Origin: an uncultured Clostridia bacterium
GTDB taxonomy: Bacteria > Bacillota > Clostridia > Christensenellales > Aristaeellaceae
Direction of reading: 5' to 3'
DNA: 50,533 bases
Assembly: GCA_947166705.1 (NCBI GenBank)
Contig: CAMVFE010000016.1
Span: forward strand, 1 to 50,533
Shown: positions 1,953 through 46,724 of the stretch, in pieces
Numbering within the stretch: the stretch's first letter is position 1
Layout of the letters: each line of letters begins with the position of its first letter
Program-made: the position numbers and the translations under genes
Notes under the pieces: model-generated
What the model saw: the letters and a program-made list of their open reading frames with translations, nothing else
Told to the model about the DNA's origin: nothing
The model's database searches: none

Positions 1953-4424
1953 ATGAACAGCAGGAAGTTCGAGCTGAATGATGATACGCTTGGCATCATC
2001 GAGGAGATTGGCGGATATATGCCCGGCGGCTTCTTTATTTACCGCGCGGAGGATCGGGAGAAACTGATCTACGCCAATCAGGCGGTTTTCAGGATCTACG
2101 GCTGCCGGGATGCCGGGGAGTTCGCCGAACTGACGGGGAACACCTTCCGGGGCATGGTGCATCTGGACGATTACGGCCGGGTCAGCGCCGTCATCACCGG
2201 GCAGATCCGCAGCAGCGAGGAGAAGATCGACCACGAGGAATACCGGATCATCCGCCGGGACGGGGAAATCCGATGGGTGGACGATTACCGCCATTACATG
2301 GAGACCCGCGCGTACGGCGGGGTTTTTGTCGTGTTTATCAGCGATATCACGGAAAAAAAGGATTCAGCGGGAGACGGAAGGGTGGCGCTTCATGAGCGCC
2401 TGCTGGCCGAGGAACGGAACCGGGAGCAGCAGAATCAGCTGATCACCGCGCTGAGCTCGGACTACTGGAGCGTATATCTGGTGCAGCTGGACCGGGACGA
2501 GGGCGTCTGCTACCAGGAGAGCGGGGAGGACCGGGAATATCAGCTGGGTCGGCATTTCCAGTACCGGGAGAGCATCCGCGCCTACGCAGAGGAATACGTC
2601 ACGGCAAAATACCGGGAGGAGTTCCTGCGCTTTACGGAACCGGACGCGATCCGGGAGGCGCTGCTGACCAGCCGGGTGATCTCCTACCGGTATCAGATCA
2701 TAAAGAACGGGAAGCCGATCTACGTCATGATCCGGTTTGCCGGCGTGCGCCGCCCCGAGGAGCGAGACGACGGGAAGGTGCATTCCGTCGGGCTGAGCTT
2801 CTCCAACGTGGACGCGGAGACGCGCAAGAGCCTGGAGCAGAACCGGGCGCTGAGCGAGGCGCTTGCCGCCGCCCAGGAGGCGAGCCGGGCCAAGACCGCC
2901 TTCCTGTCGAACATGAGCCACGAGATCCGCACCCCGATGAACGCGATCATCGGGCTGAACGACATCGCGATGCACGAGCCCTCGGCCAGCGAAAAGATCC
3001 GGGACTATCTCAGCCGTATCGGCACCAACGCCAACCATCTGCTGGGCATCATCAACGACATTCTGGATATGAGCCGGATCGAATCCGGGCGCATGGTGAT
3101 CCGGAGCGAGGAATTCTCCTTCGCCAAGACGCTGGAGCAGGTCAACGCCATCATCAGCAGCCAGTGCCGCGAGAACGGGCTGCACTACGAATGCCGGACC
3201 CGGGGAAATGTCCGGGACTACTACGTGGGCGACGACATGAAGCTGCGGCAGGTGATGATCAACATCCTCGGAAACGCGGTCAAATTCACCCCGGCGGGGG
3301 GCAGCATCACCTTCTCGGTGGAAACCATTGCGCAGTTCGACGGGAAGTCCACGCTGCGGATGACCTTCGCCGACACGGGCATCGGCATGAGCCGGGACTA
3401 CCTGCCGAAGCTTTTTGACGCCTTCTCCCAGGAGGACGCCTCCACCACCAGCCGATACGGCAGCACCGGCCTCGGCATGCCGATCACCAAGAACATCGTG
3501 GAGCTGATGAACGGGAACATCGAGGTGGAGAGCGAGCAGGGAAAGGGAACGACCTTCACGGTGACCGTGACGCTGATCGACTCCGAACGGAACGACGGGG
3601 TCGAAGCGGGGGACCAGATCCAGCCGGACGAGATGTGCGTGCTGGTCATCGACGACGATCCGGTCGCGTGCGACCATGCCCGGCTCGTGCTCGGGCAGGT
3701 GGGCATCAGCTGCGAAACCGCGGTTTCCGGGCAGGAAGGCGTTGAGATGGCCCGGCTGCGCTACGCCCGCAGGGAGCCGTACAACCTGATCCTGGTCGAC
3801 TGGAAGATGCCCGGCATGGACGGCGTCGAGACCACCCGGAAGATCCGCGCCATCATGGGGACGGAGATCCCCATCATCATCCTGACCTCGTACAGCTGGG
3901 AGGACGTGGCGGAGGAGGCCCTGGAGGCGGGCGTGGATACCTTCGTGGCCAAGCCCCTGTTCGCGGGCAACGTGATGGAGGAATTCCGCGCCGCGTTCCG
4001 GAAGAAGAACGTCCGGCTGGAGCGGGAGACCGCCGACCTGAAGGGGAGGCGGATCCTGCTGGCGGAGGACGTGCCGGTCAACGCCGAGATCATGATGATG
4101 GTGCTGGGCATGCGCGAGGTGCAGGTCGAGCTGGCGGAGAACGGGCGCAGGGCCGTGGAGATGTTCACGGAGCACGAGCCCGGCTACTACGACGCGATCC
4201 TCATGGATATGCGCATGCCGGAGATGGACGGGCTGGAGGCCACCCGGCGCATCCGGGCGAGCGGACGGGCGGACGCGGAGAGCATTCCGATCATCGCGCT
4301 GACGGCCAACGCGTTTGACGAGGATGTCCAGCGCAGCATGCAGGCGGGGCTGAACGCCCACCTGAGCAAACCGGTGGAGCCAGAAGCCCTGTTCCGGACG
4401 CTCGAGGGACTGATCGCGCCCTGA
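1953..4424 (+). CDS. Soluble PAS hybrid histidine kinase with two receiver domains
   Basis: An 823-residue phosphorelay protein without membrane segments. In order: a PAS domain (about 15-130, ending in the typical VVFISDITEKK), a second PAS-like region (about 150-285), HisKA with the phosphoacceptor His near 323 (SHEIRTP), and HATPase_c with N box NAVKFTP, DTGIG and STGLGMP. Two receivers follow, with phosphoacceptor Asp near 616 (LVDWKMPGMDG) and Asp near 752 (LMDMRMPEMDG), each followed by the conserved Thr/Ser and Lys (ILTSYS...AKPL; ALTAN...SKPV). There is no HPt or DNA-binding output, so the signal must pass to a partner encoded elsewhere. Lack of a transmembrane region suggests an internal signal. 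The gene lies between the flavodoxin-like gene and RpiB; a redox or metabolic signal is only inference. Confidence 0.92.
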   Translation: MNSRKFELNDDTLGIIEEIGGYMPGGFFIYRAEDREKLIYANQAVFRIYGCRDAGEFAELTGNTFRGMVHLDDYGRVSAVITGQIRSSEEKIDHEEYRIIRRDGEIRWVDDYRHYMETRAYGGVFVVFISDITEKKDSAGDGRVALHERLLAEERNREQQNQLITALSSDYWSVYLVQLDRDEGVCYQESGEDREYQLGRHFQYRESIRAYAEEYVTAKYREEFLRFTEPDAIREALLTSRVISYRYQIIKNGKPIYVMIRFAGVRRPEERDDGKVHSVGLSFSNVDAETRKSLEQNRALSEALAAAQEASRAKTAFLSNMSHEIRTPMNAIIGLNDIAMHEPSASEKIRDYLSRIGTNANHLLGIINDILDMSRIESGRMVIRSEEFSFAKTLEQVNAIISSQCRENGLHYECRTRGNVRDYYVGDDMKLRQVMINILGNAVKFTPAGGSITFSVETIAQFDGKSTLRMTFADTGIGMSRDYLPKLFDAFSQEDASTTSRYGSTGLGMPITKNIVELMNGNIEVESEQGKGTTFTVTVTLIDSERNDGVEAGDQIQPDEMCVLVIDDDPVACDHARLVLGQVGISCETAVSGQEGVEMARLRYARREPYNLILVDWKMPGMDGVETTRKIRAIMGTEIPIIILTSYSWEDVAEEALEAGVDTFVAKPLFAGNVMEEFRAAFRKKNVRLERETADLKGRRILLAEDVPVNAEIMMMVLGMREVQVELAENGRRAVEMFTEHEPGYYDAILMDMRMPEMDGLEATRRIRASGRADAESIPIIALTANAFDEDVQRSMQAGLNAHLSKPVEPEALFRTLEGLIAP

Positions 4425-4473
4425 GGGGATGAATACGGAGAAGAATCCAGAAAACAGCCAGGAGGGAAGCAGC

Positions 4474-4941
4474 ATGATTATCGCAATCGGGAACGATCAC
4501 GCGGGGGTGGAGATGAAGCAGCAGATCGCCGCGTACCTGCGGGAGATGGGGCACGAGGTGATCAACACGGGGAATGACGACCCGGCGGACCGGGGGGACG
4601 ATTACCCCGTCTACGGATACCGGGTCGGGAGGCTGGTCGCCGACGGGAAGGCGGAACGCGGGATCTGCATCTGCGGAACGGGGGTCGGCATCTCCCTGGC
4701 GGCCAACAAGATTCCCGGCATCCGGGCCTGCGTATGCTCGGAGCCGTACACGGCCCAGCTTTCCGCCCGCCACAACCGGACCAACGTGCTGTGCTTCGGC
4801 GCGCGCGTGGTGGGCATCGAGCTGGCCAAAATGATCGTGAAGGAATGGCTGGAGGCCAGGTTTGAGGGAGAGAGGCACCAGCGCCGGATCGACATGATCA
4901 CGGAGATCGAAAAAACGGGAAGACTCGCTTCGGAAGACTGA
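4474..4941 (+). CDS. rpiB: Ribose-5-phosphate isomerase B (RpiB/LacAB family)
   Basis: A 155-residue enzyme that interconverts ribose-5-phosphate and ribulose-5-phosphate or related sugar phosphates. Family marks are IAIGNDHAG at the start, the catalytic-cysteine and phosphate loop ICICGTGVGIS, and SARHNRTNVLCFGAR, which supplies the catalytic His and phosphate-binding Arg/Asn. The ATG at 4474 is preceded by AGGAGGG at 4460-4466; the frame opens earlier at 4429 without a ribosome site. It sits 49 nt after the kinase and 43 nt before the GH3 gene, likely one transcript. In this family some members act on allose or galactose phosphates, and the glycosidase neighbour leaves that open. Confidence 0.9.
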   Translation: MIIAIGNDHAGVEMKQQIAAYLREMGHEVINTGNDDPADRGDDYPVYGYRVGRLVADGKAERGICICGTGVGISLAANKIPGIRACVCSEPYTAQLSARHNRTNVLCFGARVVGIELAKMIVKEWLEARFEGERHQRRIDMITEIEKTGRLASED

Positions 4942-4984
4942 AGGACCGGAAACGAACCCCACAGGACAGAGAAGGAGGAAGAAC

Positions 4985-7591
4985 ATGGCAAAAATCTACG
5001 CATCCAGGAATCCGGAAGTCAGCGCACGGGAAACCGCCAACGGCCAGCGCTCGCGGGAGATCGCGGTCCAGGGCATGGTGCTGCTGGAAAACAGCGGCGT
5101 GCTGCCGCTGGAGGGAAAGCCCGGGAAAATTGCCCTGTACGGGAACGGCGCCCGCCGGACCATCAAGGGCGGCACGGGATCCGGAGACGTGAACAGCCGG
5201 GAGACGGTGAACATCGAGACGGGGCTTGAGGACGCCGGATTCGAGATCGTCACCCGCGGCTGGATCGACCGGGACTGCGCCAGCAACGACGCGGCGGAGG
5301 CCGCGTACTTCGCCGGGCTGAAAAAGGTTTTCGATGAAAAGGGCATGGCGGCTTTCGGCCTGCTGTTTGACAACCCCTTCATTCCGCCGGCGATGATTCC
5401 GGTGGAGGACGCTGATATCCGCGCGGAAGAAACGGATACGGCAGTGTTTGTGATTGCGCGCAATTCCGGCGAGGGAAAGGACCGCCGGGACACCCCCGGG
5501 GAATACGAGCTGTTTGAGGAGGAGATCGCTTCCCTGCGCCGGGTGGCGGCCGCCTATCCGAAGACGGTGCTGGTGCTGAACGTCGGCGGGATTATCGACA
5601 TGAAGGCCGTGAAGGAAATCCCCGGGATCGGCGCCATCCTGCTGATGGGCCAGGCCGGCAACTACGGCGGATACGCCCTGGCGGACGCCCTGACCGGAAA
5701 GCAGGCGCCGAGCGGACGCCTGACGGATACGTGGGCGGTCAATTACGCGGACTATCCCTCCGCCGCGACCTTCAGCCACTGCAACGGCGACCTGGACGAC
5801 GAATACTACACGGAGGGCATCTACGTCGGATACCGGTACTTCGACACCTTCAACGTGGCTCCCATGTATCCCTTCGGATACGGGCTGAGCTACACCTCCT
5901 TCGAAATGGCCTGCGAAGCCTGCGCCGCGGACGAGAAGGAGGTCTGCCTCCGGATCCGGGTGACCAACACCGGCACGCGCAGCGGGCGGCAGGTGGTTCA
6001 GGCCTACTACTCCGCGCCGGCCGGGAAGCTGGAGAAGCCCTATCAGGAGCTGGCGGCATACGCGAAGACGAAGGAGCTGAAGCCCGGGGAATCCGAAACG
6101 CTGACGCTGCGCTTCGCCACGGCGGACATGGCTTCCTACAGCGAGGAGAAGGCCGCGTGGATCCTGGAGAGCGGCACCTATTACATCCGCTGGGGCGAGC
6201 ATTCCCGGAGCACCCGGATCGCGGCGGCGCTGACGCTGGATGCGGACGCGGTGACGGAGCAGGTCAGGAACGTGCTGAAGCTGGACTGCAGCATGGAGAC
6301 CCTGTCCTCCCGCGGCGCCACGCCCTGGAGCTATGCCGGGGAGGCGGAGGAGAAGGCGGCCGCGCCGGCCTTCCCGCTGACAGCGGCGAAGATTCCCTGC
6401 TGCAGGGCGGAATATGCCGGAAAGCCGCAGGCGATCCCGGCGACCGAAAAGCAGAATAAGATCACCATGGAGGACGTGCGGCAGGGCAGGGCGACGCTGG
6501 ACGAGCTGGTGAGCCAGCTGACTCCCTTTGAGATGGCCACGCTGTGCGTCGGATCCGCCCGCGGCGGATTCTTCGGGGACGGCCCGCAGATCGGCGCCTC
6601 CTCCGCGGCCTGCCCCGGCGCGGCCGGAGATACGACCTCCCTGCTGGTGGACGACCGCGGCGTGCGCAACCTGATCCTGCCCGACGGCCCGGCCGGACTG
6701 CGGCTGGCGCCGCATTTCAAGGTGGACGGGAACGGAAAGATTTATATGATCGGGTCCCCCTTCCCGGGATTTGACCTGATCGCGGGCGGACGGGAAAAGC
6801 CGGCCATTCCGGAGGACGCGGTGGATTACTACCAGTACGCGACCGCCATCCCCACCGCGACGCTGCTGGCCCAGACCTGGGACGACGCGGCGGTTGAGGA
6901 AGCCGGGAACATCGTCGGCGAGGAGATGGAAGAATTCGGATGCGACCTGTGGCTGGCGCCCGGCATGAACATCCACCGGAACCCGCTGTGCGGACGGAAC
7001 TTTGAATACTACTCGGAGGATCCCCTGCTGGCCGGCAGGTGCGCCGCGGCGGACACGCGGGGCGTGCAGAAGCATCCCAGCGCGGGAACCACCATCAAGC
7101 ATTTTGCCTTCAACAACCAGGAAGACAACCGCAGCCACGTCAATTCCCACGTGGACGAGCGGACGATCCGGGAGATCTACCTGAAGGGCTTCGAGATCTG
7201 CATCCGGGAAGCGAAGCCGCTTTCCATCATGACCTCCTACAACCTGATCAACGGCGAGCATACGGCCAACAGCTATGACCTGATCACCGCGCTGGCCCGG
7301 GACGAATGGGGATTTGACGGCATCGTCATGACCGACTGGGGCACCACGAGGAAGGCGGCGCTGATCGAAGGGCAGCAGAGCGCCGAATTCAAGTACGGAA
7401 GCTCCTACGCCTCCGGATGCGTCAAGGCCGGAAACGACCTGACCATGCCGGGAAGCGATGAGGATGTCCAGGATATCCTGGACGCGCTGGACAAGAAGGA
7501 AGGGGAGGTTCCGTATCCCCTGAGCCTCGGGGAGCTTCAGGCCGCCGCGAAGCGGATGCTGAGCCTGATCCTGAGGATGCAGCGCGGCTGA
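4985..7591 (+). CDS. Glycoside hydrolase family 3 beta-glycosidase with permuted domains
   Basis: An 868-residue intracellular enzyme (no signal peptide). The domain order is the reverse of most GH3 enzymes. The (alpha/beta)6 domain comes first (IAVQGMVLLENSGVLPL near residue 25 is its usual beginning), followed by a fibronectin III-like domain (about 305-390, VTNTGTRSGRQVVQAYYSAP). The TIM barrel comes last. The catalytic nucleophile is Asp near 784 in FDGIVMTDWG, and substrate-binding KHFAFNNQE and GRNFEYYSEDP are intact. The same order is known from beta-glucosidases of rumen Firmicutes such as Ruminococcus albus and Butyrivibrio. It probably releases terminal beta-glucose or xylose from imported oligosaccharides. 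GGAGG lies 8 nt upstream of the ATG; the gene ends at a strong hairpin. Confidence 0.92.
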   Translation: MAKIYASRNPEVSARETANGQRSREIAVQGMVLLENSGVLPLEGKPGKIALYGNGARRTIKGGTGSGDVNSRETVNIETGLEDAGFEIVTRGWIDRDCASNDAAEAAYFAGLKKVFDEKGMAAFGLLFDNPFIPPAMIPVEDADIRAEETDTAVFVIARNSGEGKDRRDTPGEYELFEEEIASLRRVAAAYPKTVLVLNVGGIIDMKAVKEIPGIGAILLMGQAGNYGGYALADALTGKQAPSGRLTDTWAVNYADYPSAATFSHCNGDLDDEYYTEGIYVGYRYFDTFNVAPMYPFGYGLSYTSFEMACEACAADEKEVCLRIRVTNTGTRSGRQVVQAYYSAPAGKLEKPYQELAAYAKTKELKPGESETLTLRFATADMASYSEEKAAWILESGTYYIRWGEHSRSTRIAAALTLDADAVTEQVRNVLKLDCSMETLSSRGATPWSYAGEAEEKAAAPAFPLTAAKIPCCRAEYAGKPQAIPATEKQNKITMEDVRQGRATLDELVSQLTPFEMATLCVGSARGGFFGDGPQIGASSAACPGAAGDTTSLLVDDRGVRNLILPDGPAGLRLAPHFKVDGNGKIYMIGSPFPGFDLIAGGREKPAIPEDAVDYYQYATAIPTATLLAQTWDDAAVEEAGNIVGEEMEEFGCDLWLAPGMNIHRNPLCGRNFEYYSEDPLLAGRCAAADTRGVQKHPSAGTTIKHFAFNNQEDNRSHVNSHVDERTIREIYLKGFEICIREAKPLSIMTSYNLINGEHTANSYDLITALARDEWGFDGIVMTDWGTTRKAALIEGQQSAEFKYGSSYASGCVKAGNDLTMPGSDEDVQDILDALDKKEGEVPYPLSLGELQAAAKRMLSLILRMQRG

Positions 7592-7735: not shown

Positions 7736-10700
7736 TCAGAGAGGATCCTCCTGACGGATCAGGGATTCCAGGATCTGCACGTAGAGGTCATGGAACCGCT
7801 CCATCCGCGGCGCGTCGAACAGGCCTTCCGCATACTCCATTTCCGAATCGAAGGCGCCGTCGCCGTACTCGTTTTCCAGCAGCTCCATCTCCAGCCGGGC
7901 GCCCGCGGCGCTGAACTCATCCGCCAGGGGAAGGAACTCCGGATGAAGCTCATCCAGCTCGTCCGCGTTGATACCCAGCTGCAGGTTGATTTCCATACAG
8001 TCGTTGACGTAGGGAACGCGGGTCTCCGTCATGAAGTCCCAGGCGGAATGCGCGATTCCCTCCGCGACCTGCTCCTTCACGGAGAGCAGCAGCTCCCGGG
8101 CGGAGGAGATGTTCTCCATGCGCGCCGCGGCGGGCAGGTTCTTGATCAGCATACCGACCGCGCTGCCCGCCTCCGGAGCGAGACGGTTGTTGAAGATCCA
8201 GTTGATCATGACATGGCTGCGGCCGGTGAACCGGGAAAGGGCCAGCAGGCCGGCCGAGACGGCCATGACGGAATGGGATACGCCCCAGAAGGCCTCGGCG
8301 GCGGCGACGTCGCCGGCGCCGAAGCTGAGCCGTCGTATGCGTCCGGCCTGGTTGATATTGGCGCTTTCGTGATCCGGGTCCGGAATGACGCACCAGTCCG
8401 TATCCCCGTAATTCTCCCGGAAATACGCCCGGCTTCTTTCGACCGCGCCCGCGGCGGCCTGCTGCTCCTCCTCCGCCAGCAGGGCGAAATAGTAATCCTT
8501 TTCCAGCGGCCTGCCGAAATAGGCATTGGCGACATCCCGCAGGAGCACGCCCAGGGAGCCGCCGTCCATCAGGAGATGGTGCACATCCAGGAACAGGTAG
8601 CACCCCTTCCGGCCGCGGAAAACATTGACCTTGCAGAGGCAGGCGTCCAGGAACTTCCGGAAGGGAAGGATCAGGATGTCCCCCAGGGCATCCTCCGTTT
8701 CGGGAAGGATGTCGCGCACGCGGACCTCGGGCAGGAGCCCGGGGCGGTACTGCTGGCGCAGCTCGCTGTCTTCATTGAAGAAGAAAGCCACCGACAGGGC
8801 GGGATGGTTCGCCAGCGCGCGGTTCACCGCCGCGCAGAGGCGGTCCGCATCCACGGACGGCCCGAAACGGGCCAGGAAATGCATGTTGCTCCACATGGTG
8901 GAATCCGGACGGAAGAGCTGATGGTCGATCATCTCGATCTGCATGGGGGAGACCGGGTGATCCGCGAGGCGGGCCGCCGCCTCACGCTCCTCCAGGCTGC
9001 CCCGGCCGGCGCGCCTGCCCAGCTCCTTCGCGATGGCGCCGGGGGTGCGCAGGCGGAAAATATCCGCCGCGGTCAGGCCGTCCAGCTGCGCCTCGGAGAG
9101 GGCGACCATGGCCTTCAGGGAGTCGCCCCCCAGATCAAAGAAGTCGCTCAGCAGGCCCACCTCGTTCTCCGGCAGGCCCGTGGTACGGGCAAAGGCGGCG
9201 CAGAGGATCTTTTCCGTCTCCGTGACCGGCGGCACATATTCCGCCCGCAGCTCCTTCAGATCCGGATCCGGCAGCGCCCGGCGGTCCACCTTGCCGTTGA
9301 CGGTCATGGGCATCTCGTCCAGCCGGGTGAGCACGGAGGGCACCATGTATTCCGGCAGCTTTTCCTGCAGGCGCTGCCTGAGCCGGTCCGCCGGGACGTC
9401 CCCCGAGGCGGTGAAATAGCCCGCCAGGTATTCCGTGCTTCCGGCTTTCCGCACCGCGGCGGCGCTGACCAGCACGCCCGGGAATTCCGCCATGACCTTT
9501 TCAATTTCATCCAGCTCGATCCGGAAGCCGCGGAGCTTGATCTGATTGTCCAGCCGGCCGAAGATCCGGATTTCCCCCGAGGCGTCCCAGGCGGCGAGGT
9601 CGCCGCTGTGATAGGCCCGCAGGCCGTCGCGGACGAAGAAGGCTTCGGCGGTTTTTTCAGGCAGGCCGACATAGCCCCGGCCCACCTGGTCGCCGCAGAT
9701 GATCAGCTCGCCCCGCAGGCCGACCGGAAGCGGGTTGCCGAAGGAATCCGCCACCTGGAAGACCGTGTTGGCGATGGGCGGGCCCACCGTCACGTTTTCC
9801 CCGCCGGACATTATGGCCGCGGAGCAGCCCATGGTGCATTCCGTGGGCCCGTAGACATTCAGGATCACGCTGTCGTCCCGCAGCTCCCGCAGGCGGTCGT
9901 ACAGCTGCCGCGGGAAGGCCTCAGCGCCGATATCGAAGAAGGTCAGCTGACGGATCGCCTCCCGGCTCTCCGGAATATCCAGCAGGCTCATCAGATACGT
10001 GGGCGTGCAGGTGATGCCGGAGACGCCGGTTTCCCGGATCAGCCGGGCGAGGGCGGAGGGATCGTGGATCTCCGCCTCGGTGGCGATCACCACCGGGTTT
10101 CCGTTGCACAGGGGGACAAACTCCTCCACCACGGACACGTCGAAGGAGAAGGAGGCCAGCGCCAGGCAGACCCTTCCGGGCGCGGCGTAATGCATGATTT
10201 CAAGGGATTTTTCGTTCCGGTGGACATAGTTGGCGATATTCCGGTGCTCGATCAGCACGCCCTTGGGACGCCCCGTCGAGCCGGAGGTATAGATGCAGTA
10301 GGCCAGATCCTCCGGGCCGACCGGCGTGAGCGGCGCGGCAGGGAAAGCCTCGTCCGGCCGGATATCGTCGGGCCGGGCCGCGCCGAAGGCCTCCTCCAGC
10401 GTAAGCGCCTCAAAGCCCCTGCCGGACAGGTCACGGCCGGAAAGCATGTCCCGCGCCGTCAGGAGGAGACGGGCGCCCGCATCCTCCATGCAGAAGGCGA
10501 TCCGCTCGTCCGGATAATCGGGGATGAAGGGAATGAACGCCCCGCCGGCCTTCAACACGGCCTGCTCCGCCACATAGGCCCAGACGCTGCGGTCAAAGAG
10601 GACGCCCACCAGGCTGCCGCGGACCACGCCGCGGAGCCGGAGCGCCTGCGCCAGCCGGCTGCTGAGCAGATCCAGATCCCGGAAGGAGAGCGTCCTTCCG

Positions 10701-13700
10701 GCGGCGGTAACCGCGGCCGCGCCGGGCTTTTCCAGCGCGCGGCGGTGAATCTGCTCCTGGACGGGAAGGAAGGCGATCGGAACGGCGGTATCGTTGAAGG
10801 AGGCCAGCTGCGCGCGGTCCTCCTCCGTCAGGAGGGAAACCTCCGAGATGTTCCGGACGGTGAGCAGCTGCTCCGCCGTGGTGAAGAGATCCTGCGCGAA
10901 GCGCCGGACCCACGCCTCGGTGAATTTTTCGTTGCGGTATTCGACGGTCATGTTGTACCGGCCGCCGGTGGAGAAGAACTGGATGGACATGCAGCCGGTG
11001 ACCATGCCGGTATGATAATGCTCCATGAACCAGCTGTCCGCCTGAAGGAGATCCGTGCCCGCGCCGGCGCCCATCCTGTCCGTGAAAAGGTCCCCCTGAT
11101 AGATGAACTCCACATCCTCGTTGACCGGGAAGGCCTTCAGGACTTCGTCAAAGGAGAAGATATCGCTGGCCATGGTGGAGAAGAGCTGGCGGCTGATGCC
11201 TCGGAGATAATCGGCCACGGACAGGTCCCGGCTGAGGTCGCCGTAAACCGGAATGCGCTTGATCAGGGTGCCGATCGTGCGGTTCATCTCCGCGAGGGGG
11301 CGGCCGTTATACACCGTGGAGAAGGAGACGCGCCGGCTGTTCAGGTACTTGCTCAGCAGCAGCGCCATGGCGCCCTGGAAGAAAGCGCTTTCGGAAACGC
11401 GGATCCGGTCGCAGAAGGCCTTCACCCGCTCCGAGGCCAGGGTGCCGGGCTCAAAGCGCAGGTTGCGGCTGACGCCGGGCGTCAGGGGCCCGTTCAGATC
11501 CCCGGAGAGGGCGGGCAGATCCTCCATATCCCGGAAAAGATTCCGGTAATAATCCCGGGCCCGGTCGTGGGAACCGTCCAGCATCAGGCGCTCCTCGATC
11601 ATGCCGGCCTGCTGGACGGTGCATTCCTCCCCTTCCAGGGGCAGGCCGGCCAGGGCGCGGTTTATTTCGGAGATGAAGAGGCTGATGGAAGAGGCGTCGA
11701 AGAAGATCAGATGCGTCTTCAGCGCAAGATAGCAGCGCTCCGGCGTCCTGTAAACCGCGGGATGGATCAGGAGGCTGTCCATCATGGGCACAACGGGCAT
11801 GAACCGGGCGGCAAAGTCCAGCCGGCCTTCCTCCGTTCCCTCGAAAACCGGGATTTCCAGCGGGGCATCCGGCGCCATGAACATGCGGGGCATTCCGGAA
11901 CGGTCCGTACGGATCATATATTTCATGCCGGGATGCGCCGCCAGGACCTTATGCACCGCCTGAACCAGCGAATCGGCCGATACGTTCTCCGCCGCCCGGG
12001 CCAGATAGGATACGGTATAGGTTTCCCGGCTTCCGCCGGTGAGGCTTTCCAGATAGATGCCCATCTGGGTTTTGGTCAGCGGATAGGATTCCCGGTCCAT
12101 CGCGGGCAGGGCTGAATCCTGCTGGCTTTCGAGGTATCCGGCGAGAGCCCGGGGCGTGGGATGGGCGGAAACATCCTGGAAGGAAAGGGAACAGCCTTCC
12201 AGGCGGCTGATCAGCACCGCGGCGCTCAGGCTCGTGCCGCCGTAATCGAAGAAATCCGCCGCGGCGCTGAAGCGCTCCAGGCCCAGCGCCTCCGCGCAGG
12301 CCCGGCAGACCTTCTCCTCCAGATCCGTCCTCGGGGGTTCGTATTCCGCGTCCTCCCGGTTGATTTCAAGGCTTTTGAGCAGGGGATAATCCACCTTGCC
12401 CCGGCTGTTGCGGGGCAGGGAAGGGAGCGAGACGAAAAAGTCCGGCACCATGTAGTCCGGCAGGGACTTCCGCACCCGGTCCTTCAGCTCCGAGGGCGCG
12501 GCGCCGCCGGGAGCGAGGTAGGCGGCGATGTGATCCTCCCCGTTCACCCGGACGGACACGCTGGCGGCTTCGCTGACGCCGTCCAGCTGAAGAAGGACAT
12601 GATCGATTTCCCCCAGCTCCACCCGGTAGCCCCGGATCTTGACCATCCGGTCCTTCCGGCCGTGGAAGATGTAGTTCCCCGCTTCATCCCGCGCCATGTA
12701 GTCCCCGGTGCGGTACATGCGTTCGCCGGGCCGGAAGGGGTTTTCCGCGAAGCGCTCGCCCGTTTCCTCCGGAAGGCCGTTATAGCCGATGGCCAGCCAG
12801 GGGCTGGAGACGCAGAGCTCCCCGATTTCCCCGGGGGCTTCGATCCGGTTCCCGTCGTCGTCCACGAGGCAGAGCGAAACACCCGGAGCAGGCCGGCCCA
12901 GCGATGCCGGACCTCCCCGGCCCGGCGGGTTGAGCAGGACCGGCGCGGCGGCCTCGCTGCTGCCGTAAACCTCCCACACGCCCGGATCGGCTTCGGAAGC
13001 GGAGGATTTTTCACCGCCCATGAGGACATACCGGAGCGGCAGGGGCCCGTACAGCCGGCGCATGATGTCGTACAGCCGGGGAGGCATGAACAGGCCGGTG
13101 ATGCCGCGCTTTTCAAACAGGGCATAGAGCATATCCGTATTCTTCCGCTCCGCCTCATCGGCGATATACACGCTGCCGCCGGAGGCGAGCATCGGGAAGA
13201 AATCCATCGAGCAGGCGATGAAGCTGAAGCCCGAGATGTTCAGCGCCCGGCAGTCCGGGCCCATGGGAATGATATCCGCCAGCGCCGCGGGCGCGCAGTC
13301 CAGCATCGACTGGCGGTGCACCACGCCCTTGGGCCGGCCGGTGGAGCCGGAGGTATAGACGATGTATCCCTCCGCGTCCGGATCGGAGAGATCCAGGAGC
13401 GGGTTCTCCGGCGCCGCATCCCACGATTCCGGAAAGACATCCTCCAGGAGCAGGACGGGCACGGCGGAAGCGTCCCCGGCCCGGGCCCCGGTGGTCAGGC
13501 AGAGCGCGCAGCCCGCGTCCGTGAGAATCCGGCGCACCCGCTCCGCGGGATATTCGCCGTCAATGGGCACCAGGGCGCAGCCCGCGCGGATCACCGCGAC
13601 CAGCGCAACGCCGAAATCCCTGATCCGGGGCAAAAGCACGGCAATCCGCTTTCCGGTCCCGCCGGCCAGATCCAGCATCCGCTCCGCCAGATACGCGGAG

Positions 13701-41666: not shown

Positions 41667-42191
41667 TTATTCAGCTGTCTGGATCGAGGCAACCACGGCA
41701 CCCCAGACCATTTCAGCATTCTCCGGAGACAGGGGAGCGCAGGTCACCTCTAAAATATAACCGGCCTCGGTCGTAAAGGCTACGCTGATGCTGTCCTGCT
41801 TGGGAAGCTTGTAGGTTACGCAGGGGAATCCGTTTACGGTGCCCTTCTCAACTTCCGTCACGTCGCCGTCGGAGGAGAGCTTCTGGGCATATTCCTCCAG
41901 GGACATGCCGTCTGTGTCAACATACACCACAGACATTTGACCGGACTGATCTTCCATCATAAAGTAGCCGATCATGCCGTTTTTCTTGTCTTCCTCCGTG
42001 AGCTCCACGGGAAGCATCCCCTCCGGCAGCCAGATTTTGACCGCGATCTCGTCAAAGGTGTGAAACTCACCGGTCACGTTGCTTGCTTCGAGAATCGGCA
42101 AAGCAGTCTCCCAGTTCAGGGTGGTCTCCTCGGCCAGAGCCGCGGGCACCAGCAGGCAAAGCATCAGCAAAGCACACAGAATTTTTTTCAT
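41667..42191 (-). CDS. Secreted protein of unknown function (174 aa)
   Basis: A signal peptide (MKKILCALLMLCLLVPAALA) precedes a 154-residue mature domain with alternating strands (FDEIAVKIWLPEGMLPVEL, MIGYFMMEDQSGQMSVVYVD, GFPCVTYKLPKQDSISVAF, GYILEVTCAPLSPEN). The pattern resembles small lipoprotein-like or PsbP/DUF1795-type beta folds, but I cannot name the family. It has its own promoter, whose operator and geometry match those of the LuxR/clostripain operon just upstream. It is therefore likely a co-regulated extracellular partner, possibly a substrate, inhibitor or chaperone of the protease. Confidence 0.78.
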   Translation of the reverse strand: MKKILCALLMLCLLVPAALAEETTLNWETALPILEASNVTGEFHTFDEIAVKIWLPEGMLPVELTEEDKKNGMIGYFMMEDQSGQMSVVYVDTDGMSLEEYAQKLSSDGDVTEVEKGTVNGFPCVTYKLPKQDSISVAFTTEAGYILEVTCAPLSPENAEMVWGAVVASIQTAE

Positions 42192-42235: not shown

Positions 42236-42280
42236 ATTTTAATGGACCGCCTTCCGGTTGTATACTGTCCTTTGGTACAG
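42236..42280 (-). promoter_or_regulatory. Promoter with palindromic operator, shared with LuxR operon
   Basis: Minus-strand -10 TAAAAT (42241-42236). At exactly 23 bp upstream begins a 16-bp imperfect palindrome, CTGTCCTTTGGTACAG on the plus strand (42265-42280), abutting the weak -35 position TATACA. The same element at the same 23-bp distance occurs at 46680-46724. Confidence 0.65.
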
Positions 42281-42301
42281 GTTTTCGGAGCGCGCGGAGG
42301 A

Positions 42302-44275
42302 TCACAGATCAAAGGAAATCGGATCCATCATATCGTATCCGCCGAACACGTCGTTCAGCACAAAGCAGAACATCATGGTCACCGGCTCTTCCTCGCCGCT
42401 GTCATCGCTCAGGTCCATATAGGTGACGGCCATTCCCTCTTGCCAGAGGATCTGGTCTCCTTCAAACTCGCTTTCCTCCATCTCTTCGCCGTCTTCCGCG
42501 TCCACAAACATGGTGTAAACAGGAATGATGACGTCCCCTTCTTTTAATTGGGTCGTATGGCGAATCGGCAGACCGCTTTCATCATAGCCCGCGTTGGCCC
42601 CGAGAATCCGCCCTTCCTTGCTTCCGGCCCTGAATTCCACCACCAGGTAGGTATATTCTCCGTTCAGCTTCACGGGAATCAGACTTCTTCTGCCGTATTC
42701 GTTCACGATCTGATCGTACAGCGGCACCAGCTGATCCCCAAAGACCGGCCAGGTTCCGTCAAACGTGCTGTAAACGGTTCCCTTATTCCAGTCGATAACG
42801 TTATTCTGCATCAGGCCCAGGTCCACATAGCCGGAGGATTCCTCGTCGGTGATGTCCATCATGACCATGCCCTCTACATAATCCAGATACCGCAGATCTT
42901 CCGGAGAAAGGCTGGCCGAGAAGGCGTAATCTCCTTCCGAGGCGGAAACAGGAATGGCCGCGGGTTCGCTTTCCTCGTAGGTTCCCGACGCATCGTTCCA
43001 GCTCAGCCCGCCCTGCTGGCTGCTGTAGGCGGAAGCCACGTCCGAGAGGAAGCCCGAGCCGGTGATGTTCTGCGGCGTGGTTTGCGCAAAGCTGTAGCTT
43101 CCCCCCGTCAGCTGCCCGGCATATGCTTTGACAAAGCCAATCCAGTTGGGAATACAGGAAGACAGATCCACGCCCTCCGCGTAGCTTTCAAACTCGTTCT
43201 TCGTATCGTGCGGAATCAGAACGGACAGGCCGGAGCAGGAACCCAGATTCTCCGTATGCCGGCTGACCAGCACCGCGTCTGTCAGGGCCTGCCGCGCTTT
43301 GGCGGCTTCGGCCTTGTTGAAATGGGAATAGGCGTCCAGCATGGCTCCCAGGTCAACCATGTCCCAGCTGCCGTCCACAAAGGAGCCGAAGGTATACATC
43401 CGGCTGCGTCCGCGCCTGATTTCCGCTTCGCCGCCTCCCGCCAGCTCGCCCTGCAGGGTCAGGCCAAGATTTTCCATTGCCTCCCGCAGCGGGACCATTT
43501 TTTTGACGTTGATGACGCTCATGGTTAAGTAATCGTCAGGATTCTCTTTCTTTCCGGCCTCCATATAGCTGTCCGCAATCAGGCGGCAAAGCTGCTCCGT
43601 GGACAGGTCCGGATTCTGGTTCAGGGCTTCCACCCAGGGCGTGTAATGCCAGCCCGTGCCCGGCTCCAGTTCTTCGCTGGCCACAAAGTAATCGATATCA
43701 TAGTTGGACAGCAGGGCGGCCATCTCGTAGGTCGCCATCATGCAGGCGTCACAGCCGAAGAAATCGAAATGGAAGCCGCCAACCCTGCCTTTCAGGTCCT
43801 GCAGCGCCTGATTGATTTCCCGCAGGGTGAGCCCGTCTTCCTTTTCGGTTGTGCTGTCAAAGCACATGCCGGCTTCAGAACCCGCGCCGTGATCCCACAG
43901 GATGACTCCGGTTCTTTGGGCCGGATAGTTTTTAATTCCGTATTCCAAAAACTCCAGGAGACACTCCTCGCTGCCCATGGATGCCCAGCCCCAATCCGTA
44001 ATGGACTCAAAGGCTCCGTCCCGGATTTCGATCAGGTTGCGGGTGTTCCCTTCGATTTCCTCAAAATCCCAGTTTTCCGCCCCGCCTGCCAAAACGACGA
44101 TATTCACGTTCTCGCCGTTTTCCGCGATGCCCATTTCGTAGATATCCTCGCAGGCATCGCTTTGCAAATCCGACCCGCACATATAGACAAGCAGCGTCGT
44201 ATCTGCTTCGGCCATAGCGCCGGCACATAGAAGCAGGAGTCCAAGGGTGAAAATAACGGCCATGATTTTTTTCAT
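42302..44275 (-). CDS. Clostripain-type cysteine protease (peptidase C11), secreted
   Basis: A 657-residue exported protease with signal peptide MKKIMAVIFTLGLLLLCAGAMA. The C11 catalytic pair is visible: His129 in GVILWDHGAGSE and Cys178 in FFGCDACMMATYE. Both positions agree closely with characterised bacterial C11 enzymes, which cleave after Arg or Lys. The early YMCGSDLQSDA is the usual first strand. The last 280 residues form an additional beta-rich region (SYSFAQTTPQNITGSGFL...). The ATG at 44275 overlaps the stop of the LuxR-type gene as TAATG, so the regulator and protease are translationally coupled. Confidence 0.93.
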   Translation of the reverse strand: MKKIMAVIFTLGLLLLCAGAMAEADTTLLVYMCGSDLQSDACEDIYEMGIAENGENVNIVVLAGGAENWDFEEIEGNTRNLIEIRDGAFESITDWGWASMGSEECLLEFLEYGIKNYPAQRTGVILWDHGAGSEAGMCFDSTTEKEDGLTLREINQALQDLKGRVGGFHFDFFGCDACMMATYEMAALLSNYDIDYFVASEELEPGTGWHYTPWVEALNQNPDLSTEQLCRLIADSYMEAGKKENPDDYLTMSVINVKKMVPLREAMENLGLTLQGELAGGGEAEIRRGRSRMYTFGSFVDGSWDMVDLGAMLDAYSHFNKAEAAKARQALTDAVLVSRHTENLGSCSGLSVLIPHDTKNEFESYAEGVDLSSCIPNWIGFVKAYAGQLTGGSYSFAQTTPQNITGSGFLSDVASAYSSQQGGLSWNDASGTYEESEPAAIPVSASEGDYAFSASLSPEDLRYLDYVEGMVMMDITDEESSGYVDLGLMQNNVIDWNKGTVYSTFDGTWPVFGDQLVPLYDQIVNEYGRRSLIPVKLNGEYTYLVVEFRAGSKEGRILGANAGYDESGLPIRHTTQLKEGDVIIPVYTMFVDAEDGEEMEESEFEGDQILWQEGMAVTYMDLSDDSGEEEPVTMMFCFVLNDVFGGYDMMDPISFDL

Positions 44276-46647
44276 TAGATATCCCCCAATTCTGCAGCTT
44301 TGTTCAGGGCTTCCGCCCGGGTGGAAACACCCAGCTTCTGGTAAATCAGTCCGCAAAAATACTTGACGGTTCTCTCTGAGATATTCAGGATGGAGGCGAT
44401 TTTTGCGTTTTTGTAGCCCGCGATCATCAGGGAATATACCTGATATTCCCGGTCCGTAAACACAGGCTTATTGGCGGCGGGCTTCAAGAAATTAGGATAA
44501 AACGCGGCCTGCCGCCGGGTCAGGGTCAGGACGCTCTCCGTCCATGGATCTTCGGGAAGCTTCATTTCGTTCAGCATGTCGATGACGGCGATCCCCTCGT
44601 TGGCAATCACGCGAATCAGGCTGTAATTCCTGGCCAGGTCCAGCGCCTCCTGCATTCTCTCCCGCCACGCGCCGTTTCCGCCCCGATAATGGGAAACCGC
44701 TTCCAGCAGGTTCAGCTGGATGAGCATATAAGGCCGGTCATAGCTCACAAAGTATTGCCGCAGCAGGGCCGCCAGAAACGGCACCTTCGTATGCTGCCCC
44801 AGGATCAGGTACATGCGAAGCTTCAGCATATACTGGTATCTGTCCAGGATGATGAAATCCCCCGCTTCATCCGGCGCTTCCGCCTCCAGCCAATTCACCC
44901 CGTCCGTCGTCTCTCCCCGAAGCAGCGAAAGCCAGATCCGGAATACTTCCAGATTTTTCTTCAGCCGGATCGGATGCTGATCCGTCAGGGAGGCTATGGC
45001 GTGATTCGTCATGCTGACGGCTTCGTCCAGGTTGCCCTGGGCGGCCAGGATCCGGCTCTGGATTCCGATCGCCGCGTAATGAATATCCGGATCTTCCGCG
45101 ATGCGCTGGATCCCTTCCCTGACCTTTTTCATGGCCAGGGTATAGTCCCCGTCGGGATTGGCTTCCAGCTCCCTCTCCGCGATTGCGAGTTCCGCCACGC
45201 CGCTGCCGCCGCGGCCCAGCGCCAGCTCAATCGGTTTTTTGAACAGGTGGTAAATACGCCACCCGTGCCGGACCCACCTGCAAAAATCCAGTCCGCCGTT
45301 CATCAGGCTCACGCTGTTGCCGGACACGCTGAATCCTTTGCGCCAGGCTGACGACTGCAGCAAAGTCGGCGCCTTGGCCGCGGCCAGAAGCCTCTTCAGT
45401 GTGTTTTTGCTGCCCCGCTGGGAAAGACACAGATCCAGATACGCCTTCGCTTCCTCCGCGGTTTTGCGCCGGGCGTCCAGCGCGGGGGTTTGCCGGATAA
45501 ACTGCTCAAGGGTCTGATACCATCGTTCGCTTTCCTCCGCGTGACCCCGCAGGCTTTCGATTTCACATTTTCCCTTTATCAGTTCCGGATAGCTGAGGAT
45601 GGTATCCACGTCCAGCGCCGCGTATCCTTCGCGCAGGTACACATAATCGCCGTCTGCAGGCCTGTTGAATGCGTCCCGGATCAGCAAATCCCGGATTTTA
45701 TCCCTGTCCCCCAGCTTCCGGTAATAATCGAGGGCTTTCGGCACTTGATTCTGCAGCTCGTAATAGAGGGCGACCCGCTTGTACTGCTCATTCACGTAGT
45801 CCGGCGTATACTGATTCTGCATTTCAGAGAAAAGCGCCTGTCGAACGATGGGAATGAAGGTATATCCTCCTTCGCCGTCCCGCAGCAGCATATAGGATTT
45901 TCGTGCGATCTCCTCCATCATCCGCGGCGCGTCGTTTCTGCCCGTCACAATCCTGGCCATGTTCCCGGAAAAGCGTTCAAAGGGCGACAGGTTATACAGC
46001 AGCTGCCGCTCCTGCTCCGGGAAGGTCAATATCACGTCCGACACCAGGATGCGCTTGATTTCTGACCGGGTTTGCCGGATACTTGACAGGAGAGAGGATT
46101 TTTTTTCCTTCAGCATCTGCCTGGCCAGAATATGCAGGCCGAAAGGCCACCCCCATAGTGATTCCAGAATCATCCGGACGTCAGCGGGCGTGAGCTCGAT
46201 GCCGTATTCCAAAAAAAGCTGAATGATCTCCTCGTCGCTGAAAAACAGATACTCCTTATCCAGTACGGTAATCATGCCCGTGGCGCACAGATTGTACAGC
46301 GCCTGGGGCAGCTGGGCCCGGCCCGACAGAATGGCATATTGATTTTCGGAAAGATCCGAAAGCATCGCCGCAATTTCTGTCCCCATGGCATAGGACGGAT
46401 TGTCCACGCTGTCGATGGCGATAAGCGCCTGCTTTTCCTGCGAAATGAGGCGGTAAAAAGCTTCCCAATCGTCCCGCGAAGAATCAAAACGAAGAACCTT
46501 CCCATCCCACGACTCGCAAAGCTGGTCCATCAATACAGTCTTTCCGCTGTAAAAGAAGGCGGAAAGATACACGATTTTCCGGCTTTTGAGCAGGGCGGTA
46601 ATATCCCGCAGCTTTTCCGTTCTTCGGACAATGGGCAGCTGTGCCAT
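44275..46647 (-). CDS. MalT-like LuxR-family transcriptional activator
   Basis: A 790-residue regulator. The N-terminus is a STAND-type ATPase with a degenerate P-loop (SAFFYSGKTVL near 30) and a Walker B-like strand ALIAIDSVD. The middle (about 300-700) is helical, TPR-like repeats, the ligand-sensing part in MalT. The C-terminus is a LuxR HTH (FTDREYQVYSLMIAGYKNAKIASILNISERTVKYFCGLIYQKLGV). Such proteins activate transcription by binding next to the -35 box after sensing a small ligand. It is co-transcribed with the clostripain gene and GGAGG precedes the ATG. Palindromes at matching positions in its own promoter and that of the 41667-42191 gene suggest autoactivation and control of both. 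Confidence 0.92.
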   Translation of the reverse strand: MAQLPIVRRTEKLRDITALLKSRKIVYLSAFFYSGKTVLMDQLCESWDGKVLRFDSSRDDWEAFYRLISQEKQALIAIDSVDNPSYAMGTEIAAMLSDLSENQYAILSGRAQLPQALYNLCATGMITVLDKEYLFFSDEEIIQLFLEYGIELTPADVRMILESLWGWPFGLHILARQMLKEKKSSLLSSIRQTRSEIKRILVSDVILTFPEQERQLLYNLSPFERFSGNMARIVTGRNDAPRMMEEIARKSYMLLRDGEGGYTFIPIVRQALFSEMQNQYTPDYVNEQYKRVALYYELQNQVPKALDYYRKLGDRDKIRDLLIRDAFNRPADGDYVYLREGYAALDVDTILSYPELIKGKCEIESLRGHAEESERWYQTLEQFIRQTPALDARRKTAEEAKAYLDLCLSQRGSKNTLKRLLAAAKAPTLLQSSAWRKGFSVSGNSVSLMNGGLDFCRWVRHGWRIYHLFKKPIELALGRGGSGVAELAIAERELEANPDGDYTLAMKKVREGIQRIAEDPDIHYAAIGIQSRILAAQGNLDEAVSMTNHAIASLTDQHPIRLKKNLEVFRIWLSLLRGETTDGVNWLEAEAPDEAGDFIILDRYQYMLKLRMYLILGQHTKVPFLAALLRQYFVSYDRPYMLIQLNLLEAVSHYRGGNGAWRERMQEALDLARNYSLIRVIANEGIAVIDMLNEMKLPEDPWTESVLTLTRRQAAFYPNFLKPAANKPVFTDREYQVYSLMIAGYKNAKIASILNISERTVKYFCGLIYQKLGVSTRAEALNKAAELGDI

Positions 46648-46679
46648 GCCTTTGGCCTCCTGTCTTGTCTGAATGTGTT

Positions 46680-46724
46680 ATTATATCATACCTCGGCGCA
46701 GCATGACACTGTACGAAAGTACAA
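46680..46724 (-). promoter_or_regulatory. LuxR/clostripain promoter with palindromic operator
   Basis: Minus-strand -10 TATAAT (46685-46680). A palindrome, CTGTACGAAAGTACA on the plus strand (46709-46723, core TGTAC-N4-GTACA), begins exactly 23 bp upstream and abuts a very poor -35 (TGTCAT). This is the layout of an activator-dependent promoter. Confidence 0.7.

Follow-up and report, generated by a model that had tools for sequence, protein, structure and literature searches.

Does the recurrence of one near-palindrome at the same place in two promoters mark a small regulon, in which a MalT-like regulator controls both its own protease operon and a nearby gene for a secreted protein? We addressed this question for a 50,533-nucleotide stretch of DNA from an uncultured Clostridia bacterium, referred to here as the window, and for the related genomes in which the same genes and promoters could be compared.

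Genes of the locus

The locus comprises genes for a LuxR regulator, a clostripain-family protease and a protein with a DUF4367 domain (Table 1), and the clostripain start codon overlaps the luxR stop codon (TAATG). The regulator combines the large size and C-terminal LuxR-type helix-turn-helix (HTH) that are typical of LAL (MalT-type) regulators. Its match to the TPR_MalT family (PF17874; E=2.5e-9, 37.3 bits) lies below the cut-off of 45, and it scores 113.5 bits with the MalT equivalog model, for which the cut-off is 537. A P-loop-like stretch at its N terminus, SAFFYSGKT, is invariant in five aligned orthologues, and no NTPase domain was found by Pfam at E 0.01. At the same threshold Pfam detected neither a receiver domain nor an autoinducer-binding domain of the kind that marks AHL-type LuxR proteins; the NCBIfam autoinducer-regulator model matches the regulator over the HTH alone (residues 726-790).

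The protease gave a profile match to clostripain 9cip, and residues H129 and C178, which we take to be the catalytic His and Cys, are invariant across 13 sequences, as befits a member of family C11. No credible solved relative of the DUF4367 protein was found (best E 0.15), and the name DUF4367 occurred in no paper of the literature searched. Common ancestry of the DUF4367 protein and the C-terminal part of clostripain was rejected, as the alignment was limited to signal peptides. A tRNA or tmRNA suspected by eye just upstream of luxR, at about 47010, was found by neither ARAGORN nor Rfam.

Table 1. Genes, promoter elements and putative operators of the locus (window coordinates)
Feature	Position	Strand	Evidence or conservation
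MalT-like LuxR regulator, 790 aa, C-terminal GerE HTH at residues 729-781	44275..46647	-	PF00196 E=1.5e-14, orthologue alignment
Clostripain-family (C11) protease, 657 aa, signal-peptide-like start	42302..44275	-	PF03415 E=1.1e-35
174-aa DUF4367 protein, signal-peptide-like N terminus	41667..42191	-	PF14285 24.8 bits, cut-off 22.1
luxR-promoter operator (putative), TTGTACTTTCGTACAG	46709..46724	-	counterpart at 15/20 same-contig loci, own locus counted
DUF4367-promoter operator (putative), CTGTACCAAAGGACAG	42265..42280	-	counterpart at 20/20 same-contig loci, own locus counted
luxR -35 position, TGTCAT, 17-bp spacer	46703..46708	-	
luxR extended -10, TGA (46688-46686) and TATAAT (46685-46680)	46680..46688	-	TG there in 16/16 aligned luxR promoters
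DUF4367-gene -35 position, TATACA	42259..42264	-	4/6
DUF4367-gene -10, TAAAAT	42236..42241	-	

Two promoters with the same arrangement

Read on the minus strand, the promoter of the regulator (start 46647) is TTGTACTTTCGTACAG-TGTCAT-N17-TATAAT and that of the 174-aa protein (start 42191) is CTGTACCAAAGGACAG-TATACA-N17-TAAAAT; the plus-strand readings of the two operators are CTGTACGAAAGTACAA (46709-46724) and CTGTCCTTTGGTACAG (42265-42280). The first-pass annotation of this DNA had described a near-palindrome in both promoters that begins exactly 23 bp from the -10 hexamer, and both points hold: the 16-mers run from 46724 to 46709 and from 42280 to 42265 on the minus strand, each has one mismatch to CTGTAC-N4-GTACAG, and the 23-bp distance is seen at both promoters. 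A scan of the window at up to three mismatches gave 15 palindrome matches against 6.6 expected, and all except the two operators have three. The operator's AAA core faces one way at 46709-46724 (TTTC) and the other way at 42265-42280 (CAAA), as it does in the aligned relatives.

The -35 elements beside the operators had been called very poor. This is right in part: the TATACA of the DUF4367 gene agrees with the consensus at four of six bases, and luxR, which has TGTCAT at a 17-bp spacer, has an alternative at an 18-bp spacer, GTGTCA, which also scores 4/6 and overlaps the operator by one base. The luxR promoter has, in addition, an extended -10 (TGA-TATAAT) that had gone unmentioned.

Within its own genome (G000; 2.18 Mb, 71% complete) the palindrome occurs five times at up to one mismatch, against two for the backward control, and the three copies other than the operators lie within long ORFs. 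The genome scan that had been proposed as a check, for a palindrome followed after 23 bp by a -10 (palindrome-N23-TAWAAT), returned just the two window promoters at up to one mismatch and nothing in the backward control. At up to three mismatches it again returned only these two (with zero and one mismatch), and the backward control also gave two, so the loose count alone is no proof. With N22 in place of N23 only the DUF4367 site was recovered again, shifted, and the control gave two. The 71%-complete genome yielded no third promoter site of this pattern, and as part of the genome is missing, the size of the regulon is a lower bound.

Conservation of the operators in related genomes

In a protein search, 4 of 80 relatives had orthologues of the regulator (71-83% identity) and one further genome had a 31% homologue; a search of 300 family genomes with the orthologue alignment found a LuxR match at E ≤ 1e-40 in 25, own genome counted. 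A scan of GTDB contigs gave 20 regulator loci, 18 of them full length; two rows were dropped, L059, with 38 matched residues, and L060 (Edaphobacter), where the match covered the HTH alone. By their record titles the GTDB loci are from Clostridia MAGs, one being labelled 'Christensenella sp.' and another 'uncultured Blautia sp.'. Sheep or roe-deer gut appears in four of the titles, and the RUG isolates are presumably rumen genomes.

We compared 28 loci, two of which (G181 and G217) are nearly identical. The set of 20 loci used below is defined by a regulator at least 50% identical and a DUF4367 gene on the same contig, and its members with handles span seven genera. Outside this set are G031 and G332, whose contigs end; the 26-32% homologues in G046, G117, G313 and G273 (two); and G290b, a 50% paralogue that has a 2-mismatch variant site upstream and no DUF4367 match nearby. 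Reverse-strand readings of palindromes already counted, with a weak -10, were dropped (L044 4923 minus and L063 3520 plus). The DUF4367 operator is present at all 20 loci, 18 of which fit CTGTAC-N4-G[GT]ACAG without mismatch; G210 has one mismatch, and G092 has two together with a 24-bp gap. The luxR operator is present at 15 loci and absent or degenerate at 5.

A comparison with related genomes, also called for by the first-pass annotation, gave a footprint: at both promoters the operator is nearly invariant and the flanks are variable. In the DUF4367 promoters (n=21; the 20 loci and G332, on its own contig) the operator carries on average 1.66 bits of information per base, compared with 0.17 for the 40 bp upstream of it and 0.33 for the 17-bp spacer; the corresponding values for the luxR promoters (n=16; 15 of the 20 loci and G031) are 1.42, 0.18 and 0.47. 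The gap between operator and -10 is 23 bp in 20 of the 21 DUF4367 promoters and 24 bp in the other, and 23 bp in 10 and 22 bp in 6 of the 16 luxR promoters. The commonest luxR operator, YTGTAC-TTTC/T-GTACAG, is the DUF4367 form CTGTAC-CAAA-GGACAG with the core reversed. An extended -10, with TG one base ahead of the hexamer, is found in every luxR promoter (16/16) and in one DUF4367 promoter (1/21, G092), and the luxR promoters agree with TTGACA at 2 to 5 of 6 bases when the spacer is 16-18 bp.

The operator accompanies the regulator

At up to one mismatch the promoter pattern occurs at 26 sites in 22 of the 300 family genomes, never more than two sites per genome, and the backward control gave one site (G038). 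Twenty of the 22 pattern genomes fall among the 25 that bear LuxR (Fisher 1.6e-24, relatedness ignored, on the assumption, suggested by shared handles, that both searches covered one set of 300 genomes). The p-values overstate the association, because relatives such as G181 and G217 are not independent. All but two of the sites (24/26) stand before luxR or DUF4367 of the regulator/DUF4367 system; in G313 the pattern precedes an orthologue fragment, on a different contig from the distant homologue that was scored as LuxR.

Five LuxR-bearing genomes have no pattern match. Variant sites are present in G046, G092 and G210, and in G117 a perfect palindrome, at a gap of 22 bp, precedes another gene; at the two regulators of G273 (26-27% identity), as at G313 C325 (31%), no site was found at up to three mismatches. 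Two genomes with the pattern are LuxR-less, G125, described below, and G152, in which the pattern stands before a large secreted-protein-like ORF and no regulator is seen on the 4.7-kb contig. Among 297 genomes drawn from the order, two contain the exact sequence CTGTACCAAAGGACAG, namely G000 and G018, both of which carry the regulator/DUF4367 locus; none of the 274 that lie outside the family contains it.

DUF4367 relatives at E ≤ 1e-12 occur in at least 80 of the 300 family genomes (11 candidates scored per genome), and 60 of these 80 have no LuxR match. We took promoters from 30 of the 60, chosen roughly by best score, with G304 in place of G040, and set aside G225, which has a decayed site and a contig end inside clostripain. 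Within 170 bp upstream of the 29 LuxR-less DUF4367 relatives there is no operator at up to two mismatches, the best having three (G007 and G023). A TTG-type -35 is present in 20 of 28 scorable LuxR-less promoters versus none of 20 with LuxR, where the -35 is the best of several candidates in both sets and the difference in score is itself modest (p 0.006). G200, which bears LuxR, has a second DUF4367 gene with a 2-mismatch site; this gene was left out of both sets.

In a tree of 31 DUF4367 proteins (support values not inspected), G092 stands beside LuxR-less sequences, and G018 and G181/G217/G259 stand apart from the main operator-bearing group. As the proteins are so short, the tree gives a weak hint that the operator tracks the regulator and not the lineage of the target.

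The set-aside genome, G225 (L123, L109), has the end of clostripain followed by a decayed operator, CTGTACCAAAGAACAA (2 mismatches), and then by a TTGACA -35 before DUF4367. Its contig ends ahead of any regulator, and loss of the regulator and a gap in the assembly are indistinguishable here.

The protease and control of the luxR operon

Clostripain lies between luxR and DUF4367 in 15 of the 20 loci and was not found at the G018, G200, G323, G092 and L054 loci. Calling a luxR operator at up to two mismatches with a -10 at 21-24 bp, we found one at 14 of the 15 loci with clostripain in the operon versus 1 of the 5 without it (G323; Fisher 0.005, one-sided, relatedness ignored). G259, the remaining clostripain locus, has only a half site at the position of the luxR operator. 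This distribution suggests that the luxR operator serves to place the protease under the same control as DUF4367; across the loci compared, DUF4367 is the constant predicted target and clostripain an optional one.

The first-pass annotation had proposed that the MalT-like protein activates its own operon and the secreted protein, so that protease and secreted protein form one inducible unit. Conservation of the site at both promoters, its tracking of the regulator and its absence from the 29 LuxR-less promoters examined support control of both targets by the regulator; the luxR operator is common (15 of 20 loci) and not universal. The link between clostripain and the luxR operator (14/15 versus 1/5) agrees with a single unit where the protease is present, which is the case at 15 of 20 loci.

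Activation, repression and other explanations

The two-promoter circuit is very probably real and of a broadly familiar kind, a switch that is conserved in relatives and accompanies its regulator. Its observed basis consists of conserved sites, a fixed position, co-occurrence with the regulator and the make-up of the promoters. From these features we consider it likely that a dedicated MalT-type regulator binds the operators and activates DUF4367 and its own operon. Both palindromes would then be operators recognised by the GerE domain of the neighbouring MalT-like regulator (LAL, for large ATP-binding LuxR). This protein, as a dimer or oligomer and presumably switched by a signal acting on its NTPase/TPR part, would bind the 16-bp lux-box-like site just upstream of the -35 and recruit RNA polymerase to the DUF4367 gene; at loci whose operon includes clostripain, it would do the same for its own operon. 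The DUF4367 promoters, whose -35 never begins with TTG at the loci seen, would rely on the operator. The luxR gene probably has basal expression, because all 16 luxR promoters have an extended -10. Activation is preferred because of the fixed spacing, the non-TTG -35 elements that go with the regulator and the comparison with LuxR-less genomes.

The same contacts could serve the opposite purpose, with the regulator binding both sites and repressing one or both promoters by blocking RNA polymerase at the -35 until a signal relieves it. The operator touches the -35, the extended -10 is constant in the luxR promoters, and the DUF4367 promoters combine a fair -35 with a good -10; there are also precedents, as SCO6993, an LAL regulator, acts as a repressor and binds its own promoter (PMC9628970), and Vibrio fischeri LuxR represses both with a box between -35 and -10 (PMC4444344) and at ainS, where a putative lux box overlaps a -35 (PMC5601948). 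However, the gap of 22-24 bp in all 37 aligned promoters, with the site upstream of the -35, is stricter than a repressor needs, and the contrast in TTG-type -35 elements (20/28 LuxR-less versus 0/20 LuxR-bearing) suggests that the regulator replaces -35 strength. On balance we regard repression as unlikely. Autorepression of luxR in particular is possible: the luxR -35 elements score 2-5 of 6, and a promoter with an extended -10 need not have an activator. The reversed operator core could likewise go with different regulatory signs at the two promoters.

A more distant alternative is that the palindrome is the target of another transcription factor, such as LexA, and that the LuxR gene next to it plays no part. 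The likeness of the E. coli SOS box to CTGT-N8-ACAG gives this some appeal, but LexA regulons comprise many promoter sites per genome and the maximum here is two; moreover, a LuxR relative is present in 20 of the 22 pattern genomes, and in one of the other two the site adjoins a different GerE regulator. Given this co-occurrence and the low number of sites, we set LexA aside as very improbable. Chance resemblance or recent duplication of promoter DNA, to which the imperfection of the two window sites, their different core orientation and a loose whole-genome count no higher than the control might point, is refuted by the promoter footprint, with operators nearly invariant and spacers and flanks varying over at least seven genera, and sits badly with the confinement of exact CTGTACCAAAGGACAG to two order genomes that have the locus (2/297; 0/274 outside the family).

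Relation to known regulators

In natural lux promoters the lux box lies near the -35. The operator described here resembles it in being a 16-bp dyad (CTGTA-N6-TACAG) placed near the -35 and associated with a GerE-type DNA-binding domain. The lux box of V. fischeri LuxR is ACCTGTAGGATCGTACAGGT (PMC4444344, Table 3), and its core, CTGTAGGATCGTACAG, agrees with either window site at 10, and with the symmetric consensus at 11, of 12 outer bases. Unlike V. fischeri LuxR, the window regulator has a MalT-like architecture, has no autoinducer-binding domain by Pfam and, by record titles, comes from Clostridia; unlike the lux box, the window operator has a conserved AAA core.

Large size and a C-terminal GerE HTH liken the regulator to MalT and other LAL proteins (features in PMC3282765), and its P-loop-like N terminus and its TPR_MalT-like middle, below the family cut-off, may add to the likeness. 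MalT binds direct repeats and TpdR is proposed to do so (PMC6099782), and SCO6993 binds palindromes without a consensus, including at its own promoter (PMC9628970), whereas here one conserved inverted repeat serves two promoters. The first-pass annotation had noted that MalT/LuxR activators bind beside the -35; the operator here is lux-box-like and appears not to be of MalT type. NarL/GerE response regulators likewise have a GerE HTH, and a 1-mismatch palindrome precedes a histidine-kinase/response-regulator operon in G125; the window regulator differs from them in having no receiver domain by Pfam at E 0.01.

No report of LuxR with MalT and clostripain together was found in the literature searched, and matches on LuxR, clostripain, operon and C11 included no clostripain among the matches listed. 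Systems of this kind are known; no description of this particular regulator-operator pair and its targets was found in that literature. The locus offers a compact, sequence-defined regulator and candidate operator pair with two predicted target promoters in uncultured gut Clostridia, a handle on DUF4367 and a MalT-type regulator that apparently uses a palindromic, lux-box-like site, and the natural comparisons between target genes of one kind in the presence and absence of the regulator make activation testable. More tentatively, and with less confidence than in the circuit itself, we speculate that a MalT-type regulator without an autoinducer-binding domain may have adopted or kept a quorum-sensing-like lux box for a minimal secreted protease/DUF4367 switch, that the operator travels with its regulator from one DUF4367 paralogue to another, and that differently built GerE regulators in the family act through this box on other secreted proteins.

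Sites beside distant homologues and other regulators

In G273 (L067, 7729-8421) a 27% homologue of the regulator is divergent from a DUF4367-like gene with no operator between them, and a 1-mismatch palindrome (8220-8235) lies inside the DUF4367-like ORF. The 29% homologue of G046 (L016), which has one internal TAG, is followed at 12689-12704 by a variant operator, CTATACCGCGGGACAG, that precedes a different protein of 129 aa with a signal-peptide-like start. In G117 (L065) the perfect palindrome CTGTACCTTGGTACAG (8371-8386), with a 22-bp gap to TATACT, is upstream of a 119-aa ORF divergent from a 32% regulator homologue; this ORF has a Cys-rich C terminus, looks leader-peptide-like by eye and has no Pfam match.

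The LuxR-less G125 (L144) has its 1-mismatch palindrome at 6775-6790, with a -10 at 23 bp, before an operon for a histidine kinase and a GerE response regulator, apparently a second type of regulator that uses the same box. The genes lie at 3122-6724 and from 6937 onward, and the operon is divergent from a gene for a long secreted protein (DUF7507).
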